Shown here: piece after piece, positions 5,141-25,472 of the stretch | Numbering within the stretch: position 1 is the first letter of the stretch | Layout: each line of letters opens with the position of its first letter | Virus record (IMG/VR): IMGVR_UViG_3300027969_000373 | Coordinates: 1 to 26,726 of that record | Origin: a virus | Reading direction: 5' to 3' (one strand) | DNA: 26,726 nucleotides | The notes under the pieces: generated by a model | What the model was told of the DNA's origin: nothing | The model's input: the letters and a program-made list of their open reading frames with translations, nothing else | The model's database searches: none | Made by a program: the position numbers and the translations under genes

Positions 5141-6151
5141 ATGGCATCATTAGCAGAAATCCGCGCTCGTATCGCAGCGCAAGACACAAAATCAAACACA
5201 AAGGGTTCTAACACCCAATCAGATAATTCTATCTACCCCCACTGGAATATGGACGAAGGCACAACAGCCGCAATTCGTTTCTTGCCCGATGGCGATACAA
5301 AGAACGAATTCTTCTGGGTAGAAAAACAAATCATCAAACTCGCATTCAATGGAGTTAAAGGTGATAGCAATGTAAAACAAATCGTAGTACAAGTACCATG
5401 CGTAGAAATGTATAACGATGGTTCAGTCTGTCCTATCTTGGCTGAGGTTCGTCCTTGGTATAAAGATGAGACATTGAAAGAAATGGCAAACAAATATTGG
5501 AAGAAGCGTAGTTATCTCTTTCAAGGCTTTGTACGTCAAAACCCACTTGGTGATGACAAGACACCAGCGAATCCAATTCGCAGATTTGTTATCAGTCCAC
5601 AAATTATCCCAATCATTAAAAGTGGATTACTAGATCCTGAAATCATGGAATTGCCAACAGACTATACACGTGGTCTTGACTTCAACATTAAGAAGTCTAG
5701 CAAAGGTGGATATGCTGATTACTCAACAAGTAATTGGGCACGTAGAGAAACAGCATTAACTGATGCTGAACAAGCAGCAATTGAAGCACACGGATTGTTT
5801 AATCTTAGTGACTTCTTGCCGAAGAAGCCAGGTGAAGCTGAATTGCGTATTATGAAAGAAATGTTTGAGGCATCAGTAGATGGTCAACCTTACGACAACG
5901 AACGTTGGGGTAACTACTATCGTCCATGGGGCTTAGATGCTCCGGCAGGTGGTGCAACAACTGAAGCAGCACCGATGCCCGTTCGTACTGCTCCGGCAGC
6001 AGCAACTAATCTACCCGCTTGGGAAGATGATGTTAGTGCAGCAGAAGCATCTTTCACCAGTTCACCGGTTGTAGTTCCTACAGCGGCTCCATCAAGTGAC
6101 AAAGCGCAAGACATTCTAGCAATGATACGTGCTAGACAAAACAAGTCTTAA
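5141..6151 (+). CDS. 32: Single-stranded DNA-binding protein (gp32-like)
   Basis: The protein coats single-stranded DNA in replication and recombination and partners UvsX/UvsY and the helicase. It begins M-A-S-L-A-E-I-R-A-R, a basic/hydrophobic N-terminal arm like the cooperativity domain of phage SSBs. A central OB-type core rich in aromatics follows (W35, F57-W59, W106-Y107). The T4 zinc site (one His, three Cys) is not preserved: only two Cys exist, C87 and C97. The C-terminus has an Ala/Pro/Thr linker (about 265-320) and ends in a short helix (D-I-L-A-M-I-R-A-R) instead of the strongly acidic T4 tail. The length is 336 against 301 in T4. The start is set by AAGGAA 8 nt upstream. It lies next to uvsX and uvsY. 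Confidence 0.88.
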   Translation: MASLAEIRARIAAQDTKSNTKGSNTQSDNSIYPHWNMDEGTTAAIRFLPDGDTKNEFFWVEKQIIKLAFNGVKGDSNVKQIVVQVPCVEMYNDGSVCPILAEVRPWYKDETLKEMANKYWKKRSYLFQGFVRQNPLGDDKTPANPIRRFVISPQIIPIIKSGLLDPEIMELPTDYTRGLDFNIKKSSKGGYADYSTSNWARRETALTDAEQAAIEAHGLFNLSDFLPKKPGEAELRIMKEMFEASVDGQPYDNERWGNYYRPWGLDAPAGGATTEAAPMPVRTAPAAATNLPAWEDDVSAAEASFTSSPVVVPTAAPSSDKAQDILAMIRARQNKS

Positions 6152-6450: not shown

Positions 6451-7518
6451 ATGGCCAAACCGTTCGATATATCAAAATTTCGCCGAGAGATTACTAAAAG
6501 TATTGAGGGACTTAGCATAGGATATAACGATCCAACCGATTGGATCAGTACAGGAAATTATGGACTTAATTATCTCATCAGTGGTGATTTTAATAAAGGC
6601 GTACCTCTTGGTAAAGTTACTGTCTTTGCCGGAGAGTCTGGATCAGGAAAATCATTCATCTGCTCAGGGAACCTCGTCAGACACGCACAACAACAAGGAA
6701 TCTACGTTGTACTAATTGACAGCGAAAACGCCTTAGATGAAAAATGGCTACACGCATTAGGTGTAGATACAAGCGAAACTAAATTGCTTAAACTAAACAT
6801 GGCTATGATTGATGATGTGGGTAAAACTATATCAGAATTTATGAAGTCATACAAACTAATGGCGGAAGATGATAAACCAAAAGTATTGTTTGTTGTTGAC
6901 AGTCTCGGTATGCTATTGACTCCAACTGACGTTAATCAGTTTGAAGCAGGTGATATGAAAGGTGATATGGGTCGTAAGCCTAAAGCACTAACTGCACTTG
7001 TTCGTAACTGTGTTAATATGTTTGGTAGTCACAATGTAGGATTAGTTGCCACTAATCACACATATGCAAGTCAAGATATGTTTGATCCAGATGATAAAAT
7101 TTCAGGTGGTCAAGGATTTGTTTACGCAAGTTCAATCGTAGTTGCTATGAAGAAACTCAAACTCAAAGAGGATGAAGATGGTAACAAGATTTCTGATGTA
7201 ATGGGCATTCGTGCTGCTTGCAAAGTTATGAAAACTCGCTATGCAAAACCTTTTGAAAGTATTCAAGTTAAGATTCCATATGAAACAGGTATGAGTCCTT
7301 ACAGTGGTTTAACTGATATGCTTGAGAAGTCTGGCGCATTGAAGAAAGAAGGAAACAGTTTAGTTTATGTAACTGAAGATGGTGAAATTCTTAAAGCATT
7401 TCGTAAGGGTTGGGAAGCTAACAAAGACGGAATACTTGATAAGGTGATGCTTGAATATACTGGAAAAAGTAAAAGTGTGATAAGTAATGTAACATCTACG
7501 GAGGAAGTTACAGAATGA
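6451..7518 (+). CDS. uvsX: UvsX, RecA-like recombinase
   Basis: The protein forms filaments on single-stranded DNA and drives strand invasion for recombination-dependent replication and repair. Walker A is at residues 61-68 (G-E-S-G-S-G-K-S). The RecA-type acidic residue is in I-D-S-E-N-A-L-D (E92), and Walker B is L-F-V-V-D-S at 146-151. A T-N-H-T motif at 201-204 occupies the RecA motif position that senses nucleotide. The length is 355 residues, against about 390 in T4. The Shine-Dalgarno is a purine run ending in GAGAGA, 9-15 nt upstream of the ATG. Its stop overlaps the next start (ATGA), coupling it to the small acidic gene and UvsY. Confidence 0.96.
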   Translation: MAKPFDISKFRREITKSIEGLSIGYNDPTDWISTGNYGLNYLISGDFNKGVPLGKVTVFAGESGSGKSFICSGNLVRHAQQQGIYVVLIDSENALDEKWLHALGVDTSETKLLKLNMAMIDDVGKTISEFMKSYKLMAEDDKPKVLFVVDSLGMLLTPTDVNQFEAGDMKGDMGRKPKALTALVRNCVNMFGSHNVGLVATNHTYASQDMFDPDDKISGGQGFVYASSIVVAMKKLKLKEDEDGNKISDVMGIRAACKVMKTRYAKPFESIQVKIPYETGMSPYSGLTDMLEKSGALKKEGNSLVYVTEDGEILKAFRKGWEANKDGILDKVMLEYTGKSKSVISNVTSTEEVTE

Positions 7519-8233: not shown

Positions 8234-9148
8234 TTGGCTAATTCAACTAACGTAAAACAACAACTTGCAGCACATCAAAACGCCGCAAAATCTTTAACTA
8301 TTAATCGTAATGGTAGTAACACTTTTCCTTATACTAATGGTGTTATTAGTGGTGCTCAAGGCACGACTAGTCACAATACAATCACAATGGGGAATGTTCA
8401 ACCATTGACCGCAATGAATATGGCCCAAATAGGAGCCGGTATGATGTTTGATCAATTTTCTAATACTCAACATGTTAAAAAATATGAAGTGTTTGAAACC
8501 ACTGAAGATATTTTAGCATTAAGTGTTACTTGGCATAGATTGCGCCCGTTAATCAGTCATGGTATTAGTAATATAATTAATCCTAGTAATAGGCCAACTA
8601 AACTTACTGATAGTGTTTTGTTTAAGGAACTTATTCAAGAAGATAGAGATAAGGCTGATGTTATACGTGACTATTACAGTAAGAAAATTATGATGTTGAC
8701 CTTAAAGGGACAACCATTAACTAGTTACCGAAAAGATTTAAATACATTTATTCATGGTGATTGTAAAGTAGTTAAAGAAGAAATGATGCCATTAGTGTAT
8801 CGTTTACCTGAATTCTATGAGTATGATGTTGGGCTAGAGGAAATGTTTAGAGAACTAGATACTAGATTTGAAGGATCACAAATTGCGTCATCTACAATAA
8901 AAACACTTAATCCAGTTAAAAAATTTACAGTAAAACGCAAAAGTAGAAGATTTGTAGAGTATTGGTTGAAGGACGAAGAAAATAAACCTTACAAAATTGA
9001 GATTGATTCAAATAATGATTTGATGCACTTGTGGGATTACTTTTATGATAGGGGTAAATTTCACGAGATAACACTTGATACTGTAATTAGATTTAGCAAT
9101 AGGGATAGTATTTCCCATTATAAATTGATTAAGTGGAAGTTAGCATGA
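8234..9148 (+). CDS. Conserved phage protein of unknown function (304 aa)
   Basis: No domain is recognised. The first 70 residues are Asn/Thr/Gly-rich and probably disordered, and the rest is a mixed, folded region with a basic patch near 232-242 (K-K-F-T-V-K-R-K-S-R-R). The start codon is TTG with GGAA 7 nt upstream; an ATG at 8221 is out of frame and gives only six codons. The gene lies in the uvsX-uvsY operon and overlaps the next gene by 4 nt (ATGA). This suggests co-translation with recombination functions, but the role cannot be told from sequence. Virion or DNA-binding roles are both open. Confidence 0.8.
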   Translation: MANSTNVKQQLAAHQNAAKSLTINRNGSNTFPYTNGVISGAQGTTSHNTITMGNVQPLTAMNMAQIGAGMMFDQFSNTQHVKKYEVFETTEDILALSVTWHRLRPLISHGISNIINPSNRPTKLTDSVLFKELIQEDRDKADVIRDYYSKKIMMLTLKGQPLTSYRKDLNTFIHGDCKVVKEEMMPLVYRLPEFYEYDVGLEEMFRELDTRFEGSQIASSTIKTLNPVKKFTVKRKSRRFVEYWLKDEENKPYKIEIDSNNDLMHLWDYFYDRGKFHEITLDTVIRFSNRDSISHYKLIKWKLA

Positions 9149-9708
9149 CTGTAACTATATTTCCTAAATTTATAACCACAGAAGAATGTGAGATTCTAAA
9201 TTTGTGGACAGAACATGCATTGCATAACAATATGTTAGGCAAGGGAATAAATGCATATGGTAAGGCAGGAGCAGATAATAGATACTCATCTAGGGCACAT
9301 CCTGATAGATTTGATAGCTATCCTGATGTAGCATATTCAATCTATGATAGAATTTTAAAATATCTAGATTTACATGGCTTAGAAAAAAGTGTCAATAACG
9401 GTGGGAAAGATAGTATAATTGTTAACTGTACATTGCCCGGTGGTGATGTTTTTAAGCACATAGACTTTATGGAACCAAATGGCAATCATTTATTGCGTTG
9501 CAATATATTAACTCAACCAGCGGATATGGGTGGTGAGTTATTTGTTAATGATAACAAAATAAGCATAGAAGTTGGGGATTTACATTGTTATCTTGTTACT
9601 AAATACCAACATACTGCTACTGAGGTACAGGGAGATTCTAATAGAATACTTTGGATGTTTGGGTATCAAATATCAGAATCTGATCCTAGATTTTCTCGCT
9701 GGTCCTAA
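9145..9708 (+). CDS. 2-oxoglutarate/Fe(II)-dependent oxygenase-like protein
   Basis: The 187-residue protein fits the prolyl-hydroxylase-type 2OG oxygenases. An H-x-D iron-binding pair lies at H105-I-D107, a distal His at H156 (Y-Q-H-T-A-T-E-V), and an Arg 11 residues later (R167, N-R-I-L-W-M-F) suits the 2OG carboxylate. G-G-E-L-F precedes the distal strand, as in the family. Such enzymes hydroxylate proteins, nucleic acids or small molecules; the substrate here is unknown. T4-like phages, notably cyanophages, often carry them. The ATG at 9145 is chosen because it overlaps the preceding stop (ATGA) and has GGAAG 5 nt upstream; a GTG at 9133 would add four residues. A terminator follows. Confidence 0.8.
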   Translation: MTVTIFPKFITTEECEILNLWTEHALHNNMLGKGINAYGKAGADNRYSSRAHPDRFDSYPDVAYSIYDRILKYLDLHGLEKSVNNGGKDSIIVNCTLPGGDVFKHIDFMEPNGNHLLRCNILTQPADMGGELFVNDNKISIEVGDLHCYLVTKYQHTATEVQGDSNRILWMFGYQISESDPRFSRWS

Positions 9709-13321: not shown

Positions 13322-14809
13322 ATGAAACAATGTAAAATAATCGTCAGGGATGAAGTCAATGTAAAGATTGAAGGGTTAGAATTAACCGAACGAAAATCTC
13401 TAGTAAAGATGTTTGAGTACGAAGTGCCCGGTGCAAGGTATCTTCCTGCGGTCCGTCTCGGTAGATGGAATGGCAAGGTTAGTTTCTTTAGTCTCGGTGG
13501 CTCAAGTTACGTTAACTTACTACCCGAAATACTCCCTTATATAGATGAAAAAGGTTATGATATTGAACTAGAGGACCTTCGTACATACAGTACAACATTC
13601 AATTTTACTGAAGTGTCCGAGGCTACGTTCAAACACAAGAATTGGCCTGAAGGTCACCCAATTGCAGGACAACCTGTAGTATTGCGTGACTATCAGATAT
13701 CAATCATTAATGAGTTTCTAAAGAACCCGCAATCATTACAGGAGATTGCTACAGGTGCTGGCAAGACATTAATCACCGCAGCATTAAGTTGGTCTATTGA
13801 AAGTTACGGACGCAGTATTGTTATTGTCCCGAACAAAAGTCTTGTAACACAAACAGAAGCAGATTACATTAATCTAGGATTAGATGTTGGGGTATATTTT
13901 GGTGATAGAAAAGAATACAACAAGACACATACCATCTGTACTTGGCAAAGTCTGAATAACATGCTTAAGAAAACAAAAGCAGGTGAAGCAGATGTTGAGA
14001 TCGGTGATTTCTTAGAAGGTGTAGTTTGCGTCATGGTAGACGAGGTTCACATGGCTAAAGCAGACGCACTAAAAGAATTATTAACTGGTGTAATGAGTAA
14101 CATTCCAATTCGTTGGGGATTGACTGGTACTATACCTAAAGAGAAATTTGCAAGTCAAGCTATCTTTATTAGTCTCGGTAATGTCATTAACAAACTATCT
14201 GCTAGTGAATTACAAGATAGAGGGGTATTAGCACAATGTCATGTAAACATTGTACAACTACAAGACGGAGTTGAATTCTCTAATTACCAATCTGAACTAA
14301 AACATTTACTTGAAGATGATAAACGATTAAATAAAATTACTCAATTGGTTGATACAATTAAGAACAGTGGTAATACATTGATACTTGTTGATAGAGTGGC
14401 AGCAGGTAAAGAATTACATAATAAATTAGCCGAACTACTACGTAATTTTAAAACAGAATATGATGTTGTATTTGTATCAGGTAATACTGGTATGGATGAA
14501 CGCAAAGAACAGTACGATGAAGTTGCAACAGCAACTAACAAAATCATCATAGCAACATATGGCATAGCTGCCGTCGGTATTAATATTCCCCGAATCTTTA
14601 ACCTTGTTCTTATTGAACCGGGTAAGAGTTTTGTTCGGGTAATACAAAGTATCGGGCGTGGTATTCGTAAAGCCGAAGATAAGAACTTTGTGCAGATTTG
14701 GGATATCACCAGTAATTGTAAGTTTGCAAAACGGCATCTTACACAAAGAAAAGCATTTTATAAAGAGGCTAATTATCCATTTGATGTTGAAAAACTTGCA
14801 TATAAATGA
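13322..14809 (+). CDS. uvsW: UvsW-type superfamily 2 helicase
   Basis: UvsW unwinds R-loops and branched DNA and drives fork regression and branch migration, shifting replication from origin to recombination mode. After a 110-residue N-terminal domain come the SF2 motifs: L-R-D-Y-Q at 121-125, Walker A A-T-G-A-G-K-T at 143-149, D-E-V-H at 240-243, motif III G-L-T-G-T at 266-270, and motif VI Q-S-I-G-R-G-I-R in the second RecA-like domain. The length of 495 residues agrees with T4 UvsW (about 500-590 depending on the start). The T4 gene is late-expressed, whereas here a sigma70-like promoter abuts the ATG, suggesting earlier, leaderless expression. Confidence 0.92.
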   Translation: MKQCKIIVRDEVNVKIEGLELTERKSLVKMFEYEVPGARYLPAVRLGRWNGKVSFFSLGGSSYVNLLPEILPYIDEKGYDIELEDLRTYSTTFNFTEVSEATFKHKNWPEGHPIAGQPVVLRDYQISIINEFLKNPQSLQEIATGAGKTLITAALSWSIESYGRSIVIVPNKSLVTQTEADYINLGLDVGVYFGDRKEYNKTHTICTWQSLNNMLKKTKAGEADVEIGDFLEGVVCVMVDEVHMAKADALKELLTGVMSNIPIRWGLTGTIPKEKFASQAIFISLGNVINKLSASELQDRGVLAQCHVNIVQLQDGVEFSNYQSELKHLLEDDKRLNKITQLVDTIKNSGNTLILVDRVAAGKELHNKLAELLRNFKTEYDVVFVSGNTGMDERKEQYDEVATATNKIIIATYGIAAVGINIPRIFNLVLIEPGKSFVRVIQSIGRGIRKAEDKNFVQIWDITSNCKFAKRHLTQRKAFYKEANYPFDVEKLAYK

Positions 14810-16816: not shown

Positions 16817-17040
16817 AATTACCTTTTATCGCACATTTATATGGTGCAGATTATGTATCACTGTTGGTTTGGTTACAACGCCATATAGGAAAAATGACTG
16901 ATAGTAAACCGATAATCTGGTGGGAAGGCAACAATTGGCATATGAAATTGGTGCAGGGCAAGTTTGGTGATTCATATTGCGAAATTCATTTTGCTAATAA
17001 AAAACATTTAAAGGTATTTGAAAAAGAGTGGACCGAATGA
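16810..17040 (+). CDS. L-R-W array protein 2, divergent member (76 aa)
   Basis: It begins M-V-K-L-P-F-I-A-H-L-Y, with a helix L-V-W-L-Q-R-H-I and strands around W-W-E-G-N-N-W-H-M. The C-terminus reads F-E-K-E-W-T-E instead of L-R-W, so it is either a drifted member or an unrelated neighbour of similar size. It keeps the layout strand-helix-strand-strand-helix. The stop overlaps the next ATG (ATGA). Confidence 0.75.
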   Translation: MVKLPFIAHLYGADYVSLLVWLQRHIGKMTDSKPIIWWEGNNWHMKLVQGKFGDSYCEIHFANKKHLKVFEKEWTE

Positions 17041-17354
17041 TAAAGAAACGTGCTATGGCTCGGGACAAATGGGGATCCGCCGAATGGATATCCGAACTAG
17101 CTAAAGAATGGATCAATGAAATTGATATGAAACGCCTTGAAACTGGTTATGCTGACAATCAACCTAAATGGCCATACTGGGTGCGCCCGCACAACTACGA
17201 TGAGAAAGAGTGGTATGACATGGACAAATGGCTGATAAACATAATGGGTGATAATAATTGGCATAAAGAAAATGCACGTTGGGTAGGCAGTAATCGTAAG
17301 TATTGGTTCCGTGATGAAGCAGATAGAACCTTTTTCATATTGAGATGGTCATGA
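17037..17354 (+). CDS. L-R-W array protein 3 (105 aa)
   Basis: The longest member. An extra N-terminal basic section (M-I-K-K-R-A-M-A-R-D-K-W) and a Pro/Trp-rich loop (P-K-W-P-Y-W-V-R-P) come before the common core. The core has D-M-D-K-W-L-I-N-I-M-G, then Y-W-F-R-D-E-A-D-R-T-F-F-I-L-R-W-S. The start at 17037 overlaps the previous stop; a GTG at 17028 is the alternative. The final codons TTGAGATGGTCATGA hold both this gene's end and the next gene's ribosome-binding region and start. Confidence 0.8.
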   Translation: MIKKRAMARDKWGSAEWISELAKEWINEIDMKRLETGYADNQPKWPYWVRPHNYDEKEWYDMDKWLINIMGDNNWHKENARWVGSNRKYWFRDEADRTFFILRWS

Positions 17355-17593
17355 ATAGCAAACAGCGTAGAAAAGCAAAACGTGATATTGACAATAATTA
17401 TCACAAGGTACATCTTACAATAAGCCCGGGAATGAATTGGACTGATTGGTGTGATCAAGTTGCGGAAATGGTTAGGTGGGTTACGAAATATACTAGGCGT
17501 AATTGTTTTTTGTTAAAAAATGAGTGGGCTAGTAGTACATTCTATTTCTCGGACGTAAAAGATGCCACACATTTTACATTGAGATGGTCATGA
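17351..17593 (+). CDS. L-R-W array protein 4 (80 aa)
   Basis: A basic N-terminus (K-Q-R-R-K-A-K-R) leads into the core: strand V-H-L-T-I-S, helix W-T-D-W-C-D-Q-V-A-E-M-V-R-W, strands, then D-A-T-H-F-T-L-R-W-S. This is the clearest case of the strand-helix-strand-strand-helix layout. Two starts are possible in ATGGTCATG (17345 or 17351); the second gives the usual ATGA overlap and has GAG 6 nt upstream. Confidence 0.8.
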   Translation: MNSKQRRKAKRDIDNNYHKVHLTISPGMNWTDWCDQVAEMVRWVTKYTRRNCFLLKNEWASSTFYFSDVKDATHFTLRWS

Positions 17594-17835
17594 GTAAATT
17601 TACACATAAAACAGAACGCTATTTCGGTAGCAAAATTAATATACATACAATTTCTTGGAAGAACCAAGAAGATGTTGACACCAAAGAAATAAAGAAATGG
17701 TGTAAAAAGAATTACGGAAATTCAGGATATGATGATGAAACTGGAAGTAATCGTTGGGTAGATAACATTAAACAGTGTGAGATAATGCTTACCCGTGATG
17801 AAGATTTAACATTGTTTTTATTACGATGGAACTAA
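17590..17835 (+). CDS. L-R-W array protein 5 (81 aa)
   Basis: It has the core helix D-T-K-E-I-K-K-W-C-K-K-N-Y-G, matching the W-C-x-x-x-x-G position of other members, and ends E-D-L-T-L-F-L-L-R-W-N. The start overlaps the previous stop with ATGGTCATGA. Unlike most members, its end does not overlap the next gene, which begins 9 nt later. Here the R-W codons are CGATGG, not AGATGG. Confidence 0.8.
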   Translation: MSKFTHKTERYFGSKINIHTISWKNQEDVDTKEIKKWCKKNYGNSGYDDETGSNRWVDNIKQCEIMLTRDEDLTLFLLRWN

Positions 17836-17844
17836 GAATCATCT

Positions 17845-18042
17845 ATGAAAATTGATGTATCTGATCACGGAGATTTCTATCATTTATCTATAAATCCCTT
17901 CACAGATGAAATACAAACTTGGATTGAAACACAGTTTGATATGAATGCTTGGTGGATTGCCGGTGGACATGACCATGGTGAGACTTGGCTTTGTATGAAA
18001 CATCATAAAGATGTAACGTTATTATTACTTAGGTGGTTATGA
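17845..18042 (+). CDS. L-R-W array protein 6 (65 aa)
   Basis: The shortest member. It shows strand F-Y-H-L-S-I-N, helix D-E-I-Q-T-W-I-E-T-Q-F, and a His/Gly turn G-G-H-D-H-G-E-T-W (residues 39-47), and closes K-D-V-T-L-L-L-L-R-W-L. It starts freely after a short gap with only TAAGAA as a weak ribosome-binding site. Its last codons AGGTGGTTATGA form a good Shine-Dalgarno sequence for the next gene. Confidence 0.78.
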   Translation: MKIDVSDHGDFYHLSINPFTDEIQTWIETQFDMNAWWIAGGHDHGETWLCMKHHKDVTLLLLRWL

Positions 18043-18242
18043 AATCTGTAACCATCTACGGCAAAAGTACAAATGAACTAACGGAATTATTAGGTCAAAT
18101 GAAACAGCATGGATGGGTTATTGGAGTAGATTTTGATTGGGCATATTATCGTTCTTCTACATATGATACAAGAGATCGCCACGCAGTGTTTAATTTCTAC
18201 AAAGAAGAATACAGCACCTATTTTGCATTGAGGTGGCTATGA
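18039..18242 (+). CDS. L-R-W array protein 7 (67 aa)
   Basis: It has strand S-V-T-I-Y-G-K-S, helix N-E-L-T-E-L-L-G-Q-M-K and strands around W-V-I-G-V-D-F-D-W-A-Y-Y, and ends Y-S-T-Y-F-A-L-R-W-L. The N-terminal half is the most compact in the array and the hardest to align outside the C-terminal motif. The start overlaps the previous stop; the ending GAGGTGGCTATGA is the strongest Shine-Dalgarno-like junction in the array. Confidence 0.78.
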   Translation: MKSVTIYGKSTNELTELLGQMKQHGWVIGVDFDWAYYRSSTYDTRDRHAVFNFYKEEYSTYFALRWL

Positions 18243-18454
18243 GTTTCTGCATAACAATTAAAGATAGCACTATCGGTGGTATGTATGACTATGAAGAAGT
18301 TTTAAAATGGATTGAACAATATTGTAAAAGTTATACTGGAGTTCTGTCTAAAGCTATTTATAAAACCGATCATTATATCCCTGATTACCATGAGATACTG
18401 TATCATTTTGATGATGAATCCGATGCTACATTGTTTGGATTAAGATGGTCATGA
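18239..18454 (+). CDS. L-R-W array protein 8 (71 aa)
   Basis: It has strand S-F-C-I-T-I-K-D, helix Y-E-E-V-L-K-W-I-E-Q-Y-C and strands ending E-I-L-Y-H-F-D-D, then E-S-D-A-T-L-F-G-L-R-W-S. The D-x-A-T-x-F-x-L-R-W ending is nearly the same as in array proteins 4 and 5. It overlaps both neighbours by 4 nt. Confidence 0.8.
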   Translation: MSFCITIKDSTIGGMYDYEEVLKWIEQYCKSYTGVLSKAIYKTDHYIPDYHEILYHFDDESDATLFGLRWS

Positions 18455-18720
18455 CTAATATATCAAAATCATTTCAAGATTATGATGACGATGATCCGGC
18501 ATTACATCAACGAAAGAATCGTTGGAGGTATTGGGAAGCATTGAAAAAAGTTCGTGTAGAGTACATGGAAACTAAAACAGAATTTGACGCATATGATTTT
18601 GAAGATTACCTTAAAAAGAAGTACGGTGTAAGAATGAATATTGTCAATGGCAATATAACAGATGGTTATCAAATAGTAGATGAAAAACTCTACTTAATAT
18701 TTTTATTGAAATGGGGATAG
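18451..18720 (+). CDS. L-R-W array protein 9 (89 aa)
   Basis: An added acidic/basic N-terminal half (D-Y-D-D-D-D-P, then R-K-N-R-W-R-Y-W) precedes a core with helix F-E-D-Y-L-K-K-K-Y-G and strand M-N-I-V-N-G-N. The ending is L-I-F-L-L-K-W-G, a conservative variant of L-R-W. The next ATG follows one base after the stop, so coupling continues without overlap. Confidence 0.78.
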   Translation: MTNISKSFQDYDDDDPALHQRKNRWRYWEALKKVRVEYMETKTEFDAYDFEDYLKKKYGVRMNIVNGNITDGYQIVDEKLYLIFLLKWG

Positions 18721-18721
18721 T

Positions 18722-18994
18722 ATGGCATACACAAATATTGGAACTTTTGCCCCAGCAGCAACATTTACAAGTAGCCAACTGTGCCGTGACAGTAAATCTA
18801 AATCTGGACACAAAACAGTCTACAACAGAGATTGTAGATATCACAAAGAAGATCCAACTATCATTGTAAAATGGATGAGAAGAAATTTTGGGCATAGACA
18901 CCAAGGTTGGGACTTCTCTTTAATTGGCGGATGTGTTACAATAGAGTTGTGGGATGATAAGTTTATAACAATGTATGAAATGTGGCAGATGTAA
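18722..18994 (+). CDS. L-R-W array protein 10, divergent member (90 aa)
   Basis: The last array gene. It has T-I-I-V-K-W-M-R-R-N-F-G, which aligns with the helix and glycine of the other members, then strands W-D-F-S-L-I-G-G and V-T-I-E-L-W-D-D-K, and ends T-M-Y-E-M-W-Q-M instead of L-R-W. The first 40 residues contain two Cys and a basic stretch unlike the rest. Its stop overlaps the exonuclease start (TAATG), so the array is translationally linked to the nuclease genes. Confidence 0.78.
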   Translation: MAYTNIGTFAPAATFTSSQLCRDSKSKSGHKTVYNRDCRYHKEDPTIIVKWMRRNFGHRHQGWDFSLIGGCVTIELWDDKFITMYEMWQM

Positions 18995-19542
18995 TGGCAA
19001 ATGATATAATGATTGACATGGAGACACTTGACACAAGTCCATATTGTGTTATACTAACTATAGGAGCTGTACGGTTTGATCCTAAAGGTAGTGGTGTAGT
19101 AGAACGACTAGAATTACGTCCTACAATAGATGAACAAACTGAGAAATACAATAGGGTAATTAATGAAGATACTATTAGATGGTGGGGAGAGCAGTCTGAA
19201 GCTGCAAGAGAAGAAGCAATGGGAGATGAAGGACGTATATCGTATCGTGAATGTATGGAAGCCCTTTATAAGTTTTGTTGGAATCGTAGGGCTGTGTGGT
19301 CTAATGGTGCTGCATTTGATGTCGTGGTTGCAGAAACAGCATGGCAACAACTTGGAATGCGAATACCGTGGCCATTCTATACCGTACGAGATACTAGAAC
19401 GTTGTATGAAGTCGCAGGAGTCAAACTCAGTGATGGCGGTCACTCAACTACACACAAAGCGGTAGAAGATGCCGAAAGACAAGCTATTGTTGTACAAAAA
19501 GCGTATAGTAAGTTAATCAAAGCAGGAGTAATGCAACCGTGA
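18994..19542 (+). CDS. DEDDh 3'-5' exonuclease (DnaQ/DexA-like)
   Basis: The protein has the exonuclease motifs in order: Exo I D8-x-E10 (I-D-M-E-T), Exo II with D109 in W-S-N-G-A-A-F-D, and Exo III H154-x4-D159 (H-K-A-V-E-D). This is the DEDDh type of the DnaQ superfamily, which degrades DNA or RNA from the 3' end. T4 DexA is a member of similar function. The length is 182 residues from the ATG at 18994, chosen because it overlaps the previous stop (TAATG); a GTG at 18982 would add four residues. It is followed by endonuclease VII and a DnaE-like protein, a local nuclease-polymerase group. Confidence 0.9.
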   Translation: MANDIMIDMETLDTSPYCVILTIGAVRFDPKGSGVVERLELRPTIDEQTEKYNRVINEDTIRWWGEQSEAAREEAMGDEGRISYRECMEALYKFCWNRRAVWSNGAAFDVVVAETAWQQLGMRIPWPFYTVRDTRTLYEVAGVKLSDGGHSTTHKAVEDAERQAIVVQKAYSKLIKAGVMQP

Positions 19543-19934
19543 GTTATGAATTATTCGAAGGGTTAGAAGAAGATACAAAACTTTGTACTATGTGCAATAG
19601 AATTTTGCCTGTATATAATTTTGCAAAAGAAGGTAGTAAAGGTTATCTAAGATATGAATGTAGAGAATGTGCTAGAAAACAAGGAAAGCTAGTAGCAAAA
19701 ATTAAAAAATCTGCCCCACCTGCACCCAAAGATCATGTTTGCCCTGTATGTCAACGCACGGCAGATCAATTAACTACATATGGAAAGAATAAAAAATCAG
19801 TATGGGTAGCTGATCATGACCACGAGACTGAACTATTTCGGGGATGGTTATGTCATAAATGCAACTTAGGATTAGGTAATTTAGGCGATGATGCTGAAAG
19901 ATGTAAACGTGCAGCGGAGTATCTGTTACTATGA
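19539..19934 (+). CDS. 49: Recombination endonuclease VII (Holliday junction resolvase)
   Basis: Endonuclease VII cuts branched DNA so that the concatemer can be packaged. The core motif is near the C-terminus: C-P-V-C, then W-V-A-D-H-D-H-E-T at about 87-95, R-G-W-L-C-H-K-C-N and L-G-L-G-N-L-G-D. This is the His-Cys fold of T4 gp49 with its zinc Cys pairs. An additional Cys4 finger occupies the N-terminus (C-T-M-C near 16-19 and C-R-E-C near 36-39). The length is 131 residues (T4: 157). The start is GTG at 19539, overlapping the previous stop (GTGA), with AGGAG 10 nt upstream. Confidence 0.93.
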   Translation: MSYELFEGLEEDTKLCTMCNRILPVYNFAKEGSKGYLRYECRECARKQGKLVAKIKKSAPPAPKDHVCPVCQRTADQLTTYGKNKKSVWVADHDHETELFRGWLCHKCNLGLGNLGDDAERCKRAAEYLLL

Positions 19935-20542
19935 GAATAGATAGCGATATTGACATTGATTTTGGTTCAAGAGATAGATTGCTTGAACTGATTAAATATA
20001 CTACTGCGGCAATGCGTAATGTCAATCCTATTCGTAAACATGCCACTGGTGTATATGTTACACCTATTCCCTATGACCCAGTGCTTGATATAGCAAGTAT
20101 TGATTATACAGTGGCAGAAAAACGTGGTTACTTCAAACTTGACTTATTGAATGTTCATGTCTATGAGAATGTACGTGATGAACAACATCTTAATGAGTTA
20201 ATGGTTGAGCCTGATTGGAGTAAACTAAAGGATAAGAGTTTTGTTGAGAAACTAATTCACTTGAATAATCAGTACTATAACTTAGAGAAGATGCCAGAAC
20301 TTATAGATAGTATCCCAAGATTAGCAATGTTCTTAGCAGTAATTCGTCCTGGTAAAAAACATTTGATTGGGAAGACCTGGGGTGAGATTAGTAAAACTGT
20401 ATGGGATAAGGGAACTGATGGGTATATATTCAAAAAAGCACATGCAATTGCTTATGCTCAATTAGTAGTGGTTCACATGAATTTATTAGGGAAGTCGTTT
20501 GACGAGGGTGATACTACGGCGTTTACTTCTGCGTTTGCTTAA
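19931..20542 (+). CDS. Mini DnaE-like protein (condensed Pol III alpha motifs)
   Basis: This 203-residue protein holds, in the correct order, four signatures of bacterial C-family DNA polymerase (DnaE). D6-I-D-I-D10-F is like P-D-F-D-I-D-F, the palm Asp motif, and is followed by R-D-R-L-L-E-L. K69-L-D71-L-L is like V-K-F-D-F-L, which supplies the third catalytic Asp. L-A-x3-A-V-I-R139-P-G is like L-A-L-x-R-P-G. F167-x-K-x-H171-A-x-A-Y175 is like the fingers motif K-S-H-x-x-A-Y. In DnaE these span about 370 residues inside an 1,100-residue enzyme; here they occupy about 170. PHP, OB and beta-binding parts are missing. Whether it polymerises is unknown. The family is known to me as an unnamed phage protein. 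It overlaps gp49 by 4 nt. Confidence 0.7.
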   Translation: MRIDSDIDIDFGSRDRLLELIKYTTAAMRNVNPIRKHATGVYVTPIPYDPVLDIASIDYTVAEKRGYFKLDLLNVHVYENVRDEQHLNELMVEPDWSKLKDKSFVEKLIHLNNQYYNLEKMPELIDSIPRLAMFLAVIRPGKKHLIGKTWGEISKTVWDKGTDGYIFKKAHAIAYAQLVVVHMNLLGKSFDEGDTTAFTSAFA

Positions 20543-20866
20543 TTCATTCATACTACAAGTTGGACCGTGCACCACTATAAGACTTTTGTTATTGAAGGTC
20601 CTTATAAAGGGTTTAAAAGGTAACCATTCATCCTTTAAGAACAAATTGATGGGTATAAGTCTATTGGATTCCCACCACCAAATCTCTCCTAATTCTAAGA
20701 ACTTTTCTTTTATTAGATTGTCTGTTATGGCCCCGTAATCATAGATAGTGGTGACCATATCATCACGGTTTTGAACAATTCCAACATAGTCTTGGTTGGC
20801 ATATGAACATACTGTAATGAACGGGTGATTTTCAGTCAATCGTTTAAAAAATTCGTTTTGGATCAT
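20486..20866 (-). CDS. Conserved late phage protein on the minus strand (126 aa)
   Basis: The only credible minus-strand gene here. It begins M-I-Q-N-E-F-F-K-R-L and has a mixed core with Y-A-N-Q-D-Y-V-G-I-V-Q-N, I-Y-D-Y-G-A-I, G-E-I-W-W-W-E-S-N-R, and a very basic C-terminus (S-K-R-R-S-K-R-R-S-I-T-L-V). I recall similar unnamed proteins in large phages. A late box GATAAATA on the same strand lies 17 nt upstream of the ATG, and no strong Shine-Dalgarno is visible. Its 3' end overlaps the DnaE-like gene tail to tail by 57 bp. The basic tail might bind DNA or another virion part; function unknown. Confidence 0.8.
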   Translation of the reverse strand: MIQNEFFKRLTENHPFITVCSYANQDYVGIVQNRDDMVTTIYDYGAITDNLIKEKFLELGEIWWWESNRLIPINLFLKDEWLPFKPFIRTFNNKSLIVVHGPTCSMNELSKRRSKRRSITLVKRLP

Positions 20867-21753: not shown

Positions 21754-22728
21754 ATGTTTGATATCCTGTCTATATTACCTGGTAAAAAGAAACAAACAAG
21801 TTCGGGTTGGACTAGCTTTAACGCTACCTGTTGCACCCATTTTGGTCATAGACAAGACAAACGTATGCGCGGTGGCATCAAGTTTGATGGCAACAATTGG
21901 TCAATGCATTGTTTCAATTGTGGATTCAAGTGTAACTTTGTACTCGGTCGTTCAATCAGTAGTAAAACTCGCAATCTATTAGTTTGGTGTGGCATAGACG
22001 ACCAACAAGTCAAGCGATGGAGTTTAGAAAGTTTACAACAAAAGGACTTGATAGACTTTACTCAGCCAAAAAAGCAAAAGATAAAAATAAAATTCAATGA
22101 ACACAAACTCCCTGAAGGGGAGATTGTTGATATTAATAATCCATTACACAAAGTATACGTAGAGTATCTGCAAAATAGGAAGATAGATAGTAATAGTTAT
22201 CCGTTCTTAATTACACCAAATGAAAAAGGTAGAATGGCTAACAGAGTCATTGTCCCCTACACATATAAGAATAAGATTGTAGGACATACAAGTAGATTCT
22301 TAGATAATAAAATCCCAAAATATATCAATGAACAACAACCAGGCTATGTGTTTAACATCGATATGCAAAAACCAGAATGGGGTGTATGTATCGTAACAGA
22401 GGGTATATTTGATGCATTAAGTATTGACGGGGTAGCATTGATGCACAATGACATTAGTAGTGACCAAGCATTATTACTTAGTACATTGAATAAACAACTT
22501 ATACTAGTTCCGGATAGAGATAAGACAGGATTAGCATTATGTGATAAAGCATTGGAATTAGGTTATAGTGTTAGCTTACCTAATTGGGATAATGATGTAA
22601 AAGATGTAAATGATGCAGTAGTTAAATATGGTAAACTACCTACCCTGTTAAGTATACTACATAGTGCAACAAATAGTAAAATCAAAATAGAAATGCAGAG
22701 GAAGAAAATTGGCAAAGCAGGAAACTAA
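21754..22728 (+). CDS. 61: DNA primase (gp61-like)
   Basis: Primase makes RNA primers for the lagging strand in partnership with the gp41 helicase. A zinc-binding N-terminal domain is seen (C26-C27-T-H29 and C53-x2-C56, with H32 and C60 nearby). The TOPRIM domain follows: E216 in V-T-E-G-I-F-D, D254-x-D256 in V-P-D-R-D-K-T-G, and an acidic D-V-K-D-V-N-D near 281-287. The length of 324 residues is near T4 gp61 (342). The helicase gene starts within its 3' end (20-nt overlap), so the two primosome parts are co-translated. The sigma70-like promoter abuts the ATG without a Shine-Dalgarno sequence. Confidence 0.93.
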   Translation: MFDILSILPGKKKQTSSGWTSFNATCCTHFGHRQDKRMRGGIKFDGNNWSMHCFNCGFKCNFVLGRSISSKTRNLLVWCGIDDQQVKRWSLESLQQKDLIDFTQPKKQKIKIKFNEHKLPEGEIVDINNPLHKVYVEYLQNRKIDSNSYPFLITPNEKGRMANRVIVPYTYKNKIVGHTSRFLDNKIPKYINEQQPGYVFNIDMQKPEWGVCIVTEGIFDALSIDGVALMHNDISSDQALLLSTLNKQLILVPDRDKTGLALCDKALELGYSVSLPNWDNDVKDVNDAVVKYGKLPTLLSILHSATNSKIKIEMQRKKIGKAGN

Positions 22729-24136
22729 AAAACAGTTAGAATATACAACCGATGTTCAGAAATTATTTTTGAGGATGATGGTTACAAATGCGGAATTGTA
22801 TACCCGCGTGATGAACATTATGAATAGTGAGAACTTTGACCGTTCTCTAAGACCAGTAGCTGAGTTGTTTAAAACACATACTGACAAGTATAGAGTGTTA
22901 CCTGATACAACACAAATCAAAGCAACAACAGGTATAGATATTGATCCTATCCCAGAATTAAATGACGGACATTATGAATGGTTTTTTGATGAATTTGAAT
23001 CGTTTACTAAACGACAAGAATTAGAACGTGCAATTCTTAAAGCAGCAGACTTGTTGGAGAAGGGTGAGTTTGAACCAGTGGAGAAACTAATCAAAGATGC
23101 GGTACAGATTAGTTTACAGAAAGACATGGGTACAGATTACTTTGCTGATCCTAAAAGTCGTATCAACAAATACTTTAACAGCGGTGGACAAGTATCTACG
23201 GGTTGGCCACAGATGGATCGTATTCTATATGGTGGTATGAGTAGAGGTGAATTGAATATCTTTGCTGGTGGTTCAGGTTCAGGTAAATCGTTAGTGATGA
23301 TGAACATTGCATTAAGCTGGTTGCAAGCTGGTATGAGTGGTGTTTATGTTACATTGGAATTGAGTGAAGAATTAACATCATTAAGAACAGATGCAATGTT
23401 AACCATGATGGGCACAAAGGCAATTCGTAAAGACATTGATACAACAGAACTACGTGTTAAGATGGCAGGCAAGAAGTCTGGTAAATATCGTGTTAAAAAT
23501 TTACCTGCACAAAGTAATGTAAACGACATTCGTGCTTATCTGAAAGAAGTACAGATTCAAACTGGTATTAAGATTGACTTTGTAATGGTTGATTACTTAG
23601 ACTTGGTTATGCCTGTGTCAGTTAAAGTCAACCCAAACGATCAGTTTATCAAAGACAAGTATGTTGCTGAAGAATTGCGTAATCTAGCAAAAGAACTTGG
23701 TATATTATTAGTAACTGCAAGTCAGTTGAATCGTAGTGCGGTTGACGAGATTGAGTTTGATCACAGTCATATTGCAGGTGGTATCAGTAAGATTAATACA
23801 GCAGATAATGTGTTTGGTATTTTTACAAGTCGTAGTATGCGTGAGCGTGGTAAATATCAGATTCAATGTATGAAAAGTCGTAGTTCAACGGGTGTGGGTA
23901 TGAAAATTGATTTAGAATATGATGTTGAAACTATGCGTATTAGTGATCCGGGAGTTGACGGGGAACAGAGTTATACACCAAAACCCAGTGCAAATGACAT
24001 AATGAGTACATTAAAGCCAATGGCTACTGTGGATGCTAGTACAGGTGAAATAACATTAGAACCAGTGATTAGGACTGTACACTCTGATGTACAGGGCACA
24101 AAATTGAAGTCTTTATTGAATTCCTTAAAGAAATAA
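22709..24136 (+). CDS. 41: Replicative DNA helicase (gp41-like, DnaB family)
   Basis: This hexameric helicase unwinds DNA 5'-3' at the fork and recruits primase. After a 150-residue N-terminal domain comes the RecA-type motor: Walker A G-G-S-G-S-G-K-S at 187-194, the DnaB H1a Glu in L-E-L-S, Walker B F-V-M-V-D-Y at 291-296, then V-T-A-S-Q-L-N-R and a C-terminal arginine-rich turn. The length is 475 (T4 gp41: 475). The start is TTG at 22709 with GAGGAAG just upstream, inside the primase gene; in-frame ATGs near 22775 would remove conserved N-terminal residues. The next gene starts 38 nt later behind a late promoter. Confidence 0.94.
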   Translation: MAKQETKKQLEYTTDVQKLFLRMMVTNAELYTRVMNIMNSENFDRSLRPVAELFKTHTDKYRVLPDTTQIKATTGIDIDPIPELNDGHYEWFFDEFESFTKRQELERAILKAADLLEKGEFEPVEKLIKDAVQISLQKDMGTDYFADPKSRINKYFNSGGQVSTGWPQMDRILYGGMSRGELNIFAGGSGSGKSLVMMNIALSWLQAGMSGVYVTLELSEELTSLRTDAMLTMMGTKAIRKDIDTTELRVKMAGKKSGKYRVKNLPAQSNVNDIRAYLKEVQIQTGIKIDFVMVDYLDLVMPVSVKVNPNDQFIKDKYVAEELRNLAKELGILLVTASQLNRSAVDEIEFDHSHIAGGISKINTADNVFGIFTSRSMRERGKYQIQCMKSRSSTGVGMKIDLEYDVETMRISDPGVDGEQSYTPKPSANDIMSTLKPMATVDASTGEITLEPVIRTVHSDVQGTKLKSLLNSLKK

Positions 24137-24174: not shown

Positions 24175-24414
24175 ATGCAAAAACAAACCCGCTCCCTCTT
24201 GCAGGAATTAGAAGCACTTGGAAATAACCGTGATACAACTCACATTATTGAGAGTAGAGCCCATAATATCATAACCAGCGCCATTAATTTACTAGAATTA
24301 ATTAATAAGCACTACCCTGAGGAACAAGCGCAGATATTAGAGAGAAAGCTATTAAGTTCAATTAAGAGCAAGGATCAGCAGAGATTTTCCAAATCATTGA
24401 GGAAAAAACCGTGA
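24175..24414 (+). CDS. Small late protein of unknown function (79 aa)
   Basis: A mostly helical protein: M-Q-K-Q-T-R-S-L-L-Q-E-L, then H-I-I-E-S-R-A-H-N-I-I-T-S-A-I-N-L-L, ending in basic R-F-S-K-S-L-R-K-K-P. The heptad-like hydrophobic spacing in the middle suggests a helical bundle or coiled coil. It resembles unnamed small proteins at this place in other T4-like phages, from memory. It is the first gene after a late promoter box and overlaps the next by 4 nt (GTGA), so a virion assembly role, perhaps a core or chaperone subunit, is possible. Confidence 0.82.
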   Translation: MQKQTRSLLQELEALGNNRDTTHIIESRAHNIITSAINLLELINKHYPEEQAQILERKLLSSIKSKDQQRFSKSLRKKP

Positions 24415-25472
24415 AATTATCTGAATTAAAAAGTAAATTAAATGAGGTATTCGACCCGCAAGCAGATGCCAAATTAAATTATGAAAAAGATGTTACGGGT
24501 CAGCTAAGTTCTTTAATATCAAAGGCTATTCAAATGGGAGTGGTTGATCCAAATATTAATAGTGCAGCACCCGTCAATACAGCACCAACTAATGCAGCAC
24601 CTGTCAATGCAGCGCCGGCCGGAGAAACACCGGAGCAAAAACGCATAAGATTACAAAAAGCAAGTCAACAGAATATTGATAAAACTGCTACTCCTGTTGC
24701 ACCGAAGGCAACGCCTGAACAAATACGACAACAAAGACAAGCACAAGCAACACAAGCTGCTAGAGCGGGTATGACAACTAGAGAAAACAAAAGAATTGAA
24801 AGATTAAATTCATTATTTGAAAATATAATCAATATTAATGAAGCCGATGCTCCAATGTCTATTAGTGATTTTGTGCAAAGTAAAATTGGTCCTATCACAA
24901 GAAGTAACATGTTTACTACTTCTCCTTATAAAGAAGAAGTTCAAAAAATAGCTGATGCAATTCAAGCATCTTATGCTCAAGACAAAGGACAAGTTGGAAT
25001 TCAAGCACTAGCTAATTATACTTGGGGTATGTTGACAGGTGGAAGATCACGTAATAGAGTAAGTGCGTCAGCAGCACCTACAGCAGCACCTACAGCAGCA
25101 CCTACAGCAGCACCTACAGCAGCACCTACAGCAGCACCTACAGCAGCACCTACAGAGGACCCGATAGCACAACAGCAATCTAAAATTGGTGTAAGACAGA
25201 TTAACAAAATTATACCTACATTACGTAAAAGAGATTTGTTGAGTGTTAAGAAAAATGTCGATAATACATTAGCAGGACGCGGCGCTAGTACTACTGCTGC
25301 ACCTGTAGCAGCACCAGCTGCGGCACCAGTAGCAACACCTCCTCCGGCAGATAATACAATAAGAATGCCAAAGGGTAAAGTCAGAGCAGCTAGAGAAGGT
25401 GGAGTAACACCCGAAGAACAAGCAAAGTTTGATGAAAAAGTTAGACAAGCAATGGCGGCACAATCTAAATGA
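24411..25472 (+). CDS. Ala/Pro-rich repeat protein, probable late virion or core protein
   Basis: A 353-residue protein made of folded pieces joined by low-complexity linkers. Residues 1-45 form a helical head (M-K-L-S-E-L-K-S-K-L-N-E). Residues 50-135 are rich in Ala, Pro, Asn and Gln. A folded middle at about 145-205 begins I-N-E-A-D-A-P and ends W-G-M-L-T. Seven A-A-P-T repeats (residues 221-248) and a basic C-terminal part follow, then a further Ala/Pro linker. I-N-E-A resembles a T4 gp21 prohead cleavage site. The GTG start overlaps the previous stop and has GAGGAA 6 nt upstream. A tail-fibre linker, scaffold or core role is inferred; no known family is recognised. Confidence 0.8.
   Translation: MKLSELKSKLNEVFDPQADAKLNYEKDVTGQLSSLISKAIQMGVVDPNINSAAPVNTAPTNAAPVNAAPAGETPEQKRIRLQKASQQNIDKTATPVAPKATPEQIRQQRQAQATQAARAGMTTRENKRIERLNSLFENIININEADAPMSISDFVQSKIGPITRSNMFTTSPYKEEVQKIADAIQASYAQDKGQVGIQALANYTWGMLTGGRSRNRVSASAAPTAAPTAAPTAAPTAAPTAAPTAAPTEDPIAQQQSKIGVRQINKIIPTLRKRDLLSVKKNVDNTLAGRGASTTAAPVAAPAAAPVATPPPADNTIRMPKGKVRAAREGGVTPEEQAKFDEKVRQAMAAQSK
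25071..25154 (+). repeat. Seven perfect 12-bp tandem repeats (GCAGCACCTACA)
   Basis: The 84-bp tract consists of seven identical copies encoding A-A-P-T in frame. The unit length is a multiple of three, so slippage changes linker length without frameshift. No interruption or base difference is seen among copies. Confidence 0.95.

Follow-up and report, generated by a model that had tools for sequence, protein, structure and literature searches.

Gene content around the C-unit

The window, a virus record of 26,726 bases (IMGVR_UViG_3300027969_000373), is a stretch of a T4-related genome in which a real open reading frame runs on the plus strand from an ATG at 19931 to a stop at 20542 and encodes 203 residues; the opposite strand is stop-rich. 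We refer to the product as the C-unit, the predicted C-terminal unit of a split, minimal DNA polymerase III (Pol III) alpha subunit, with palm strands that bear D6, D8, D10 and D71 and reduced fingers that contain IRPG and FKKAHA.AY. Four motifs on the plus strand follow one another in the order found in DnaE: DIDIDF (19946..19963, residues 6-11), aligned to D401/D403/D405 of E. coli DnaE; KLDLL (20135..20149, residues 69-73), in which D71 is aligned to DnaE D555; IRPG (20342..20353, residues 138-141), aligned to FRPG of the DnaE fingers; and FKKAHAIAY (20429..20455, residues 167-175), aligned to DnaE FNKSHSAAY. The first-pass annotation had named these four signatures and their order, and both were confirmed, the motifs being conserved across the family. 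It had also described the PHP, OB and clamp-binding parts as missing; this proved correct for the 203-residue chain, from which nearly all of the thumb is missing too, the predicted model consisting of palm and fingers only. The Gly-Ser motif of the palm is likewise missing from the chain, which begins a few residues ahead of the first catalytic Asp.

Genes for a putative terminase large subunit (606-2159), a putative gp32-like SSB (5141-6151) and a putative UvsX/RecA-like recombinase (6451-7518) were recognized by sequence. A plus-strand frame at 9133-9708 resembles a 2-oxoglutarate/Fe(II) dioxygenase by eye (H.D motif) and gave no Pfam match. A UvsW-like helicase gene (13322..14809, plus strand) forms the upstream end of a conserved replication/recombination block; downstream of the C-unit lie a Toprim DNA primase (21754..22728, plus strand), which is a conserved neighbour, and a putative DnaB/gp41-type replicative helicase (22709..24136, plus strand), the latter recognized by sequence and by its position after the primase in relatives. 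The 3' end of the C-unit gene is overlapped by a small convergent gene on the minus strand (20486..20866; PHROG 11637), and a gene in the same position and orientation also follows the C-unit in named relatives. From the window to RaK2, PA5oct and Atu_ph07 a single order is kept: uvsW, PHROG 11279, 11758 and 11058, variable genes, the C-unit, the convergent PHROG 11637-type gene, a structural-type protein, primase and helicase. A plus-strand frame near the end of the window (24411-25472) encodes a low-complexity protein with a repeated AAPT stretch.

Seven small plus-strand ORFs of 65-108 residues stand in a row at 17028-18720, most of them overlapping the next by about 10 nt. They share a C-terminal [FL].L[RK]W ending and are otherwise very diverged, a single pair being matched by phmmer (E 2e-5); their relatives occupy the same place in close relatives of the window. 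An eighth small ORF (18722-18994, plus strand), which does not have the LRW ending, follows the row, and its place is also kept in relatives.

The next gene encodes an Rv2179c-like DEDDh 3'-5' exonuclease (18982..19542, plus strand; PF16473, E 2e-34), a candidate partner of the C-unit, and is separated from the C-unit gene by an endonuclease VII-like gene (19539..19934, plus strand; PF02945) with 4-nt overlaps on both sides. The endonuclease VII-like gene is missing at this place in most close relatives. Among 130 distinct loci of the window's clade, a DEDDh exonuclease was encoded within 2.5 kb of the C-unit in 87 and directly upstream in 62, and in 57 of these 62 the two genes overlap by 4 nt. 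RaK2 instead carries an RNase_T-type exonuclease, about 4.5-5 kb upstream of the C-unit in the same gene row. An exonuclease two genes upstream had been reported at first reading as DnaQ-type, and a reduced Pol III core pair had been proposed; a DEDDh enzyme is indeed present there, but it is Rv2179c-like rather than Pol III epsilon, and the pairing, which fits the frequent adjacency and 4-nt overlap within the clade, is weakened by this family assignment and by the lack of adjacency in RaK2-like relatives. Judged by gene arrangement, the DEDDh exonuclease is a plausible proofreading partner of the C-unit in the window's clade.

Homology of the C-unit to C-family polymerases

The C-unit belongs to PHROG 11778, annotated 'DNA polymerase' (E 6.4e-55 over residues 5-187), and tblastn located it in 63 named phage records, all below 60% identity to the window version; carriers include RaK2-like phages of enterobacteria, PA5oct-like Pseudomonas phages, Atu_ph07, Phosso and a Vibrio phage, among others. 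At least 257 loci in IMG/VR are related to the window C-unit, and further ones were found by profile. Cellular relatives were restricted to seven MAG contigs among the 84,980 genomes searched for a cellular origin. The MAGs with C-unit relatives include ones attributed to Neomarinimicrobiota, Cloacimonadota, Methylophilaceae and others, and the contigs may be phage contigs binned with bacteria.

The gene is under purifying selection, with a dN/dS of 0.06-0.13 between the window and eight relatives of 79-95% identity. Across 164 distinct homologues, one retrieval pattern for which itself contained D[IV]DID, residues D6, D8, D10, H37, K69, D71, R139, P140, K142 and H171 were invariant or nearly so. 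The same residues were invariant in a nine-member alignment, six members of which are named phages from the tblastn search with 38-47% identity, and the active-site residues were held across homologues down to about 30% pairwise identity.

Family profiles of the C-unit aligned to E. coli DnaE at 401-421, 598-641 and 752-767, in order, and also at 539-558 when the larger alignment was used. The score was low, at 7.0 bits, against a best of 4.8 bits among 2,000 block-shuffled DnaE sequences, 651 of which gave any match. The window protein had no match in Pfam, the DNA_pol3_finger model being touched by four of nine relatives (best E 0.006), and PDB sequence searches with the window protein and with the nine-member profile returned chance matches only.

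The AlphaFold model of the C-unit was confident (pLDDT 91.0, pTM 0.81), and Foldseek placed Pol III alpha structures at ranks 1-8, with modest E-values of only about 0.01. In VIA-align the top 15 entries were all Pol III alpha or PolC, and the next, the best unrelated chain, had a Z of 2.5; the best agreement was with PolC 3f2b (Z 10.2, 199 residues aligned, rmsd 3.2), followed by Taq Pol III alpha (Z 9.1-9.4) and the E. coli enzyme (Z 7.7). The model spans residues 397-791 of E. coli DnaE, 458-848 of the Taq enzyme and 968-1307 of PolC, and a near-full-length structural match was limited to C-family polymerases. The homology to DnaE palm and fingers suggested at first reading is thus upheld by sequence profiles and predicted structure alike, and the predicted palm is of the beta-nucleotidyltransferase-like kind, the model matching C-family polymerases specifically in both structural searches; the refuting outcome named at first reading, a fold devoid of such a palm, did not arise. 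The suggestion that all three catalytic Asp are retained also held: in profile alignments, on which the assignment rests, D6/D8/D10 correspond to D401/D403/D405 and D71 to D555, and both the invariance of these residues and the predicted structure agree.

A separately encoded N-unit

When ten related records were searched with PF07733, one extra small ORF was found in nine, distant from the C-unit gene. These ORFs, which we call the N-unit (PHROG 11127), are 169-177 residues long from the likely start, carry G[VL]GRGS..S..L and terminate at or near EFLK/EFLN; their matches cover only about positions 16-98 of the PF07733 model. GxGRGSS is invariant or nearly so. The N-unit profile aligned to DnaE 320-393 and found Pol III alpha structures in a PDB sequence search (E 8e-4 to 0.02), and the N-unit model (pLDDT 88.9) aligned to residues 278-393 of the E. 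coli enzyme, 295-455 of Taq and 823-964 of PolC. Because the ranges of the two units adjoin in all three reference polymerases (..393/397.. in E. coli, ..455/458.. in Taq and ..964/968.. in PolC), the two products abut without overlap.

The Arg of the cellular ERFLN motif, which presumably lies near the nucleotide site, is a conserved Glu in the N-unit; nucleotide handling may therefore differ, and another nucleotide or substrate is conceivable. The first approximately 70 residues of the N-unit (for example L196:10001-10210) had no counterpart in the structural alignments to Pol III, and could stand in for the PHP domain or serve to bind another protein. The frame L098:1228-1740 matches two longer profiles, PHROG 13169 and 7513, and these N-unit-like matches stop near the profile ends (409/463 and 438/461), a hint that other phage DnaE genes may be divided at a similar position, though with more sequence on the N-terminal side.

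The two units co-occur. N-unit genes, which lie 11 to approximately 220 kb from the C-unit gene in relatives, were present in 16 of 21 C-bearing records. Every one of the 11 records that reach 229 kb or more is among these 16, and the five that lack the N-unit are fragments of 144-201 kb. Conversely, nine of 14 records found by the N-unit carried the C-unit; the two records longer than 260 kb are among the nine, and the remaining five measure 88-121 kb. The lists of named phages in GenBank were nearly equal (63 for C and 62 for N), and in Stenotrophomonas phage RAS14 a C-unit that tblastn had missed was found by profile. Phage Sharanji, whose host is the laboratory E. coli K-12 strain MG1655, carries both units. 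Two 141-kb Alishewanella phages are on the N list, one of which was shown to carry the C-unit 11 kb away, so that the pair also occurs in genomes smaller than 200 kb. In one of these phages, Slicko01 (141 kb, both split units), family-B polymerase matches fall in two open frames of 578 and 322 residues, and its family-B gene may itself be split or interrupted. None of the 199 C-unit ORFs and 107 N-unit ORFs searched for a fusion contained both units. The N-unit was not found in the 26.7-kb window, which is a fragment, and was present in three close relatives of the window.

A family-B polymerase, expected at first reading of a T4-like phage, was present in all 12 related records tested. Family-A polymerase (PF00476) was sought in ten related records and found in none.

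Interpretation and comparison with known systems

We consider it quite probable that the C-unit is the C-terminal subunit of a two-protein, minimal C-family polymerase specific to phages, most likely a low-processivity auxiliary DNA polymerase. The physical assembly, catalysis, substrate and role of such an enzyme, as we infer them, would be as follows. The C-unit would supply the palm strands with three metal-binding Asp (D6, D8 and D71) and shortened fingers, and the N-unit, of approximately 170 residues and encoded elsewhere, outside the window fragment, would supply the palm segment with GxGRGSS; the two would dock non-covalently into one complete beta-nucleotidyltransferase palm. The Gly-Ser loop of the N-unit would hold the phosphates of the incoming nucleotide and the Asp residues of the C-unit two metal ions, with K69, R139, K168 and H171 of the C-unit occupying positions that are conserved in the palm and fingers of Pol III. 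The enzyme would be distributive, carrying out short synthesis in recombination, repair, gap filling or lagging-strand processing beside the family-B replicase, and in the window's clade the nearby DEDDh exonuclease may proofread for it.

An auxiliary, low-processivity role is suggested by the combination of hardly any thumb, no PHP, OB or clamp-binding part and a full T4-type family-B replicase alongside; the lack of a thumb and clamp site in particular argues against processive synthesis. The location of the C-unit within the uvsW-primase-helicase block was counted in favor of a polymerase. The large distance between the two genes counts against a single enzyme, yet subunits of one enzyme may be encoded apart. 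A self-contained mini-polymerase was considered and rejected, as the C-unit does not contain the Gly-Ser half of the palm.

The same losses can be read in another way, namely that the split palm is a nucleotidyltransferase other than a DNA polymerase, with an RNA 3' end, a small molecule or a protein as its substrate. The fold of the C-family palm is that of polymerase-beta-type nucleotidyltransferases (PMC7824862), thumb, OB and clamp-binding parts have been lost, and the N-unit has Glu for the ERFLN Arg; the fingers motifs RP and FK..H...Y are nevertheless invariant or nearly so and the gene is fixed within the replication/recombination block, and we regard this alternative as unlikely. The minimal nucleotidyltransferase put forward in the first-pass annotation is tenable for the two-protein assembly only, the C-unit by itself having no Gly-Ser motif, which is encoded separately in relatives. 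Chance resemblance of motifs, or a decayed remnant of a captured dnaE, could be invoked from the lack of a Pfam match for the window protein, but is already refuted by the PHROG assignment (E 6e-55), the dN/dS of about 0.1 and the confident fold with its specific structural match, and we give it practically no credence.

A decoy of host Pol III had also been raised at first reading. As such a decoy, or as an inhibitor, the palm fragment would bind a partner in the host replisome and block host replication; host-like fragments are a known phage strategy, and the hosts use Pol III whereas these phages carry family B. The invariance of active-site residues over homologues to about 30% pairwise identity is difficult to reconcile with such a role, as are the retention of the other palm half in the same genome, the very different bacteria that serve as hosts, and the fact that the parts through which the host enzyme would contact the clamp, tau and the exonuclease are the missing ones; with its active site intact and its partner gene always present, the C-unit is highly improbable as a decoy. 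A structural, catalytically idle replisome subunit, such as one that holds the exonuclease or the family-B polymerase, would suit the fixed synteny with primase and helicase and the 4-nt overlap with the exonuclease gene in many relatives. Unlike in typical dead enzymes, however, strong selection has maintained all three Asp, K69 and the Gly-Ser motif of the N-unit, and we allow this explanation only a very slight chance.

Nearly all bacterial chromosomes are replicated by C-family polymerases, an enzyme family of unclear origin in which we know of no characterized member substantially smaller than the large cellular forms. If the two-protein polymerase is real, a two-piece palm of approximately 370 residues in many giant phages would define the minimum for a Pol III catalytic core, and would show why a phage with its own family-B replicase retains a second polymerase lineage. 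In a bolder form, to which we assign a limited chance, the split palm with its coupled DEDDh exonuclease would be an additional type of phage DNA polymerase, an active C-family core of approximately 370 residues that assembles by itself, has no thumb and proofreads through a separate subunit, and a living model of Pol III before its gain of PHP, thumb, OB and clamp-binding parts.

A split minimal Pol III alpha in 'group 2.2' jumbo phages has already been predicted computationally (Iyer et al. 2021, Viruses, PMC7824862); the N-unit was noted as a truncated alpha subunit in the CBB paper (PMC5259590), and the Atu_ph07 paper lists a predicted alpha subunit (PMC6102473). The window protein adds to the family predicted in 2021, and the same conclusion was reached here; to it we add the precise position of the split, the set of invariant residues, the occurrence of both units in 141-kb phages and the DEDDh exonuclease that is often directly upstream in the window's clade. 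A search of the open-access literature, which leaves out most subscription journals, found no experimental test of the split Pol III, and the sequence sets together with the exact split point make the 2021 prediction directly testable. The window protein belongs to the same family as the C-unit of the group 2.2 phages (PHROG 11778; the N-unit family is PHROG 11127) and, like it, comprises the Mg-binding Asp and the template-binding part with no other Pol III domains. Relatives of the window have the same split into distant genes and the family-B companion, and the window neighbours are as in RaK2, GAP32, PA5oct, Atu_ph07 and Phosso. The window protein differs as an environmental relative with 38-47% identity to named members, and in its Rv2179c-like DEDDh exonuclease and intervening endonuclease VII-like gene, which were unseen at that place in named relatives. 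Both units are also carried by phage Paride, a phage able to replicate in dormant P. aeruginosa (PMC10761892); since its close relatives do likewise and the passages considered draw no link between the two, no inference on dormancy is made.

The C-unit has in common with E. coli DnaE, Taq Pol III alpha and Geobacillus PolC the palm/fingers fold, the three catalytic Asp and the motifs K.D.L, RPG and F.K.H..AY. It carries the Asp-bearing half of the palm only, whereas DnaE and PolC contain the whole; PHP, OB, HhH and clamp-binding parts and almost all of the thumb are absent, and the Gly-Ser half lies in another gene in relatives. Full-length DnaE-like polymerases of phages, for instance those of Gordonia, Streptomyces and Bacillus (PHROG 405, 11165 and 12219), are also phage-borne members of the C family and gave weak matches to one or both halves, but their profiles span 782-1190 residues, compared to 203 for the C-unit. 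In cyanobacteria, Pol III alpha is made from two genes, DnaE-N and DnaE-C, by means of a split intein; the split lies downstream of the catalytic Asp and the halves are rejoined by protein splicing. The phage split, in contrast, falls inside the palm, the C-unit beginning a few residues before the first catalytic Asp.
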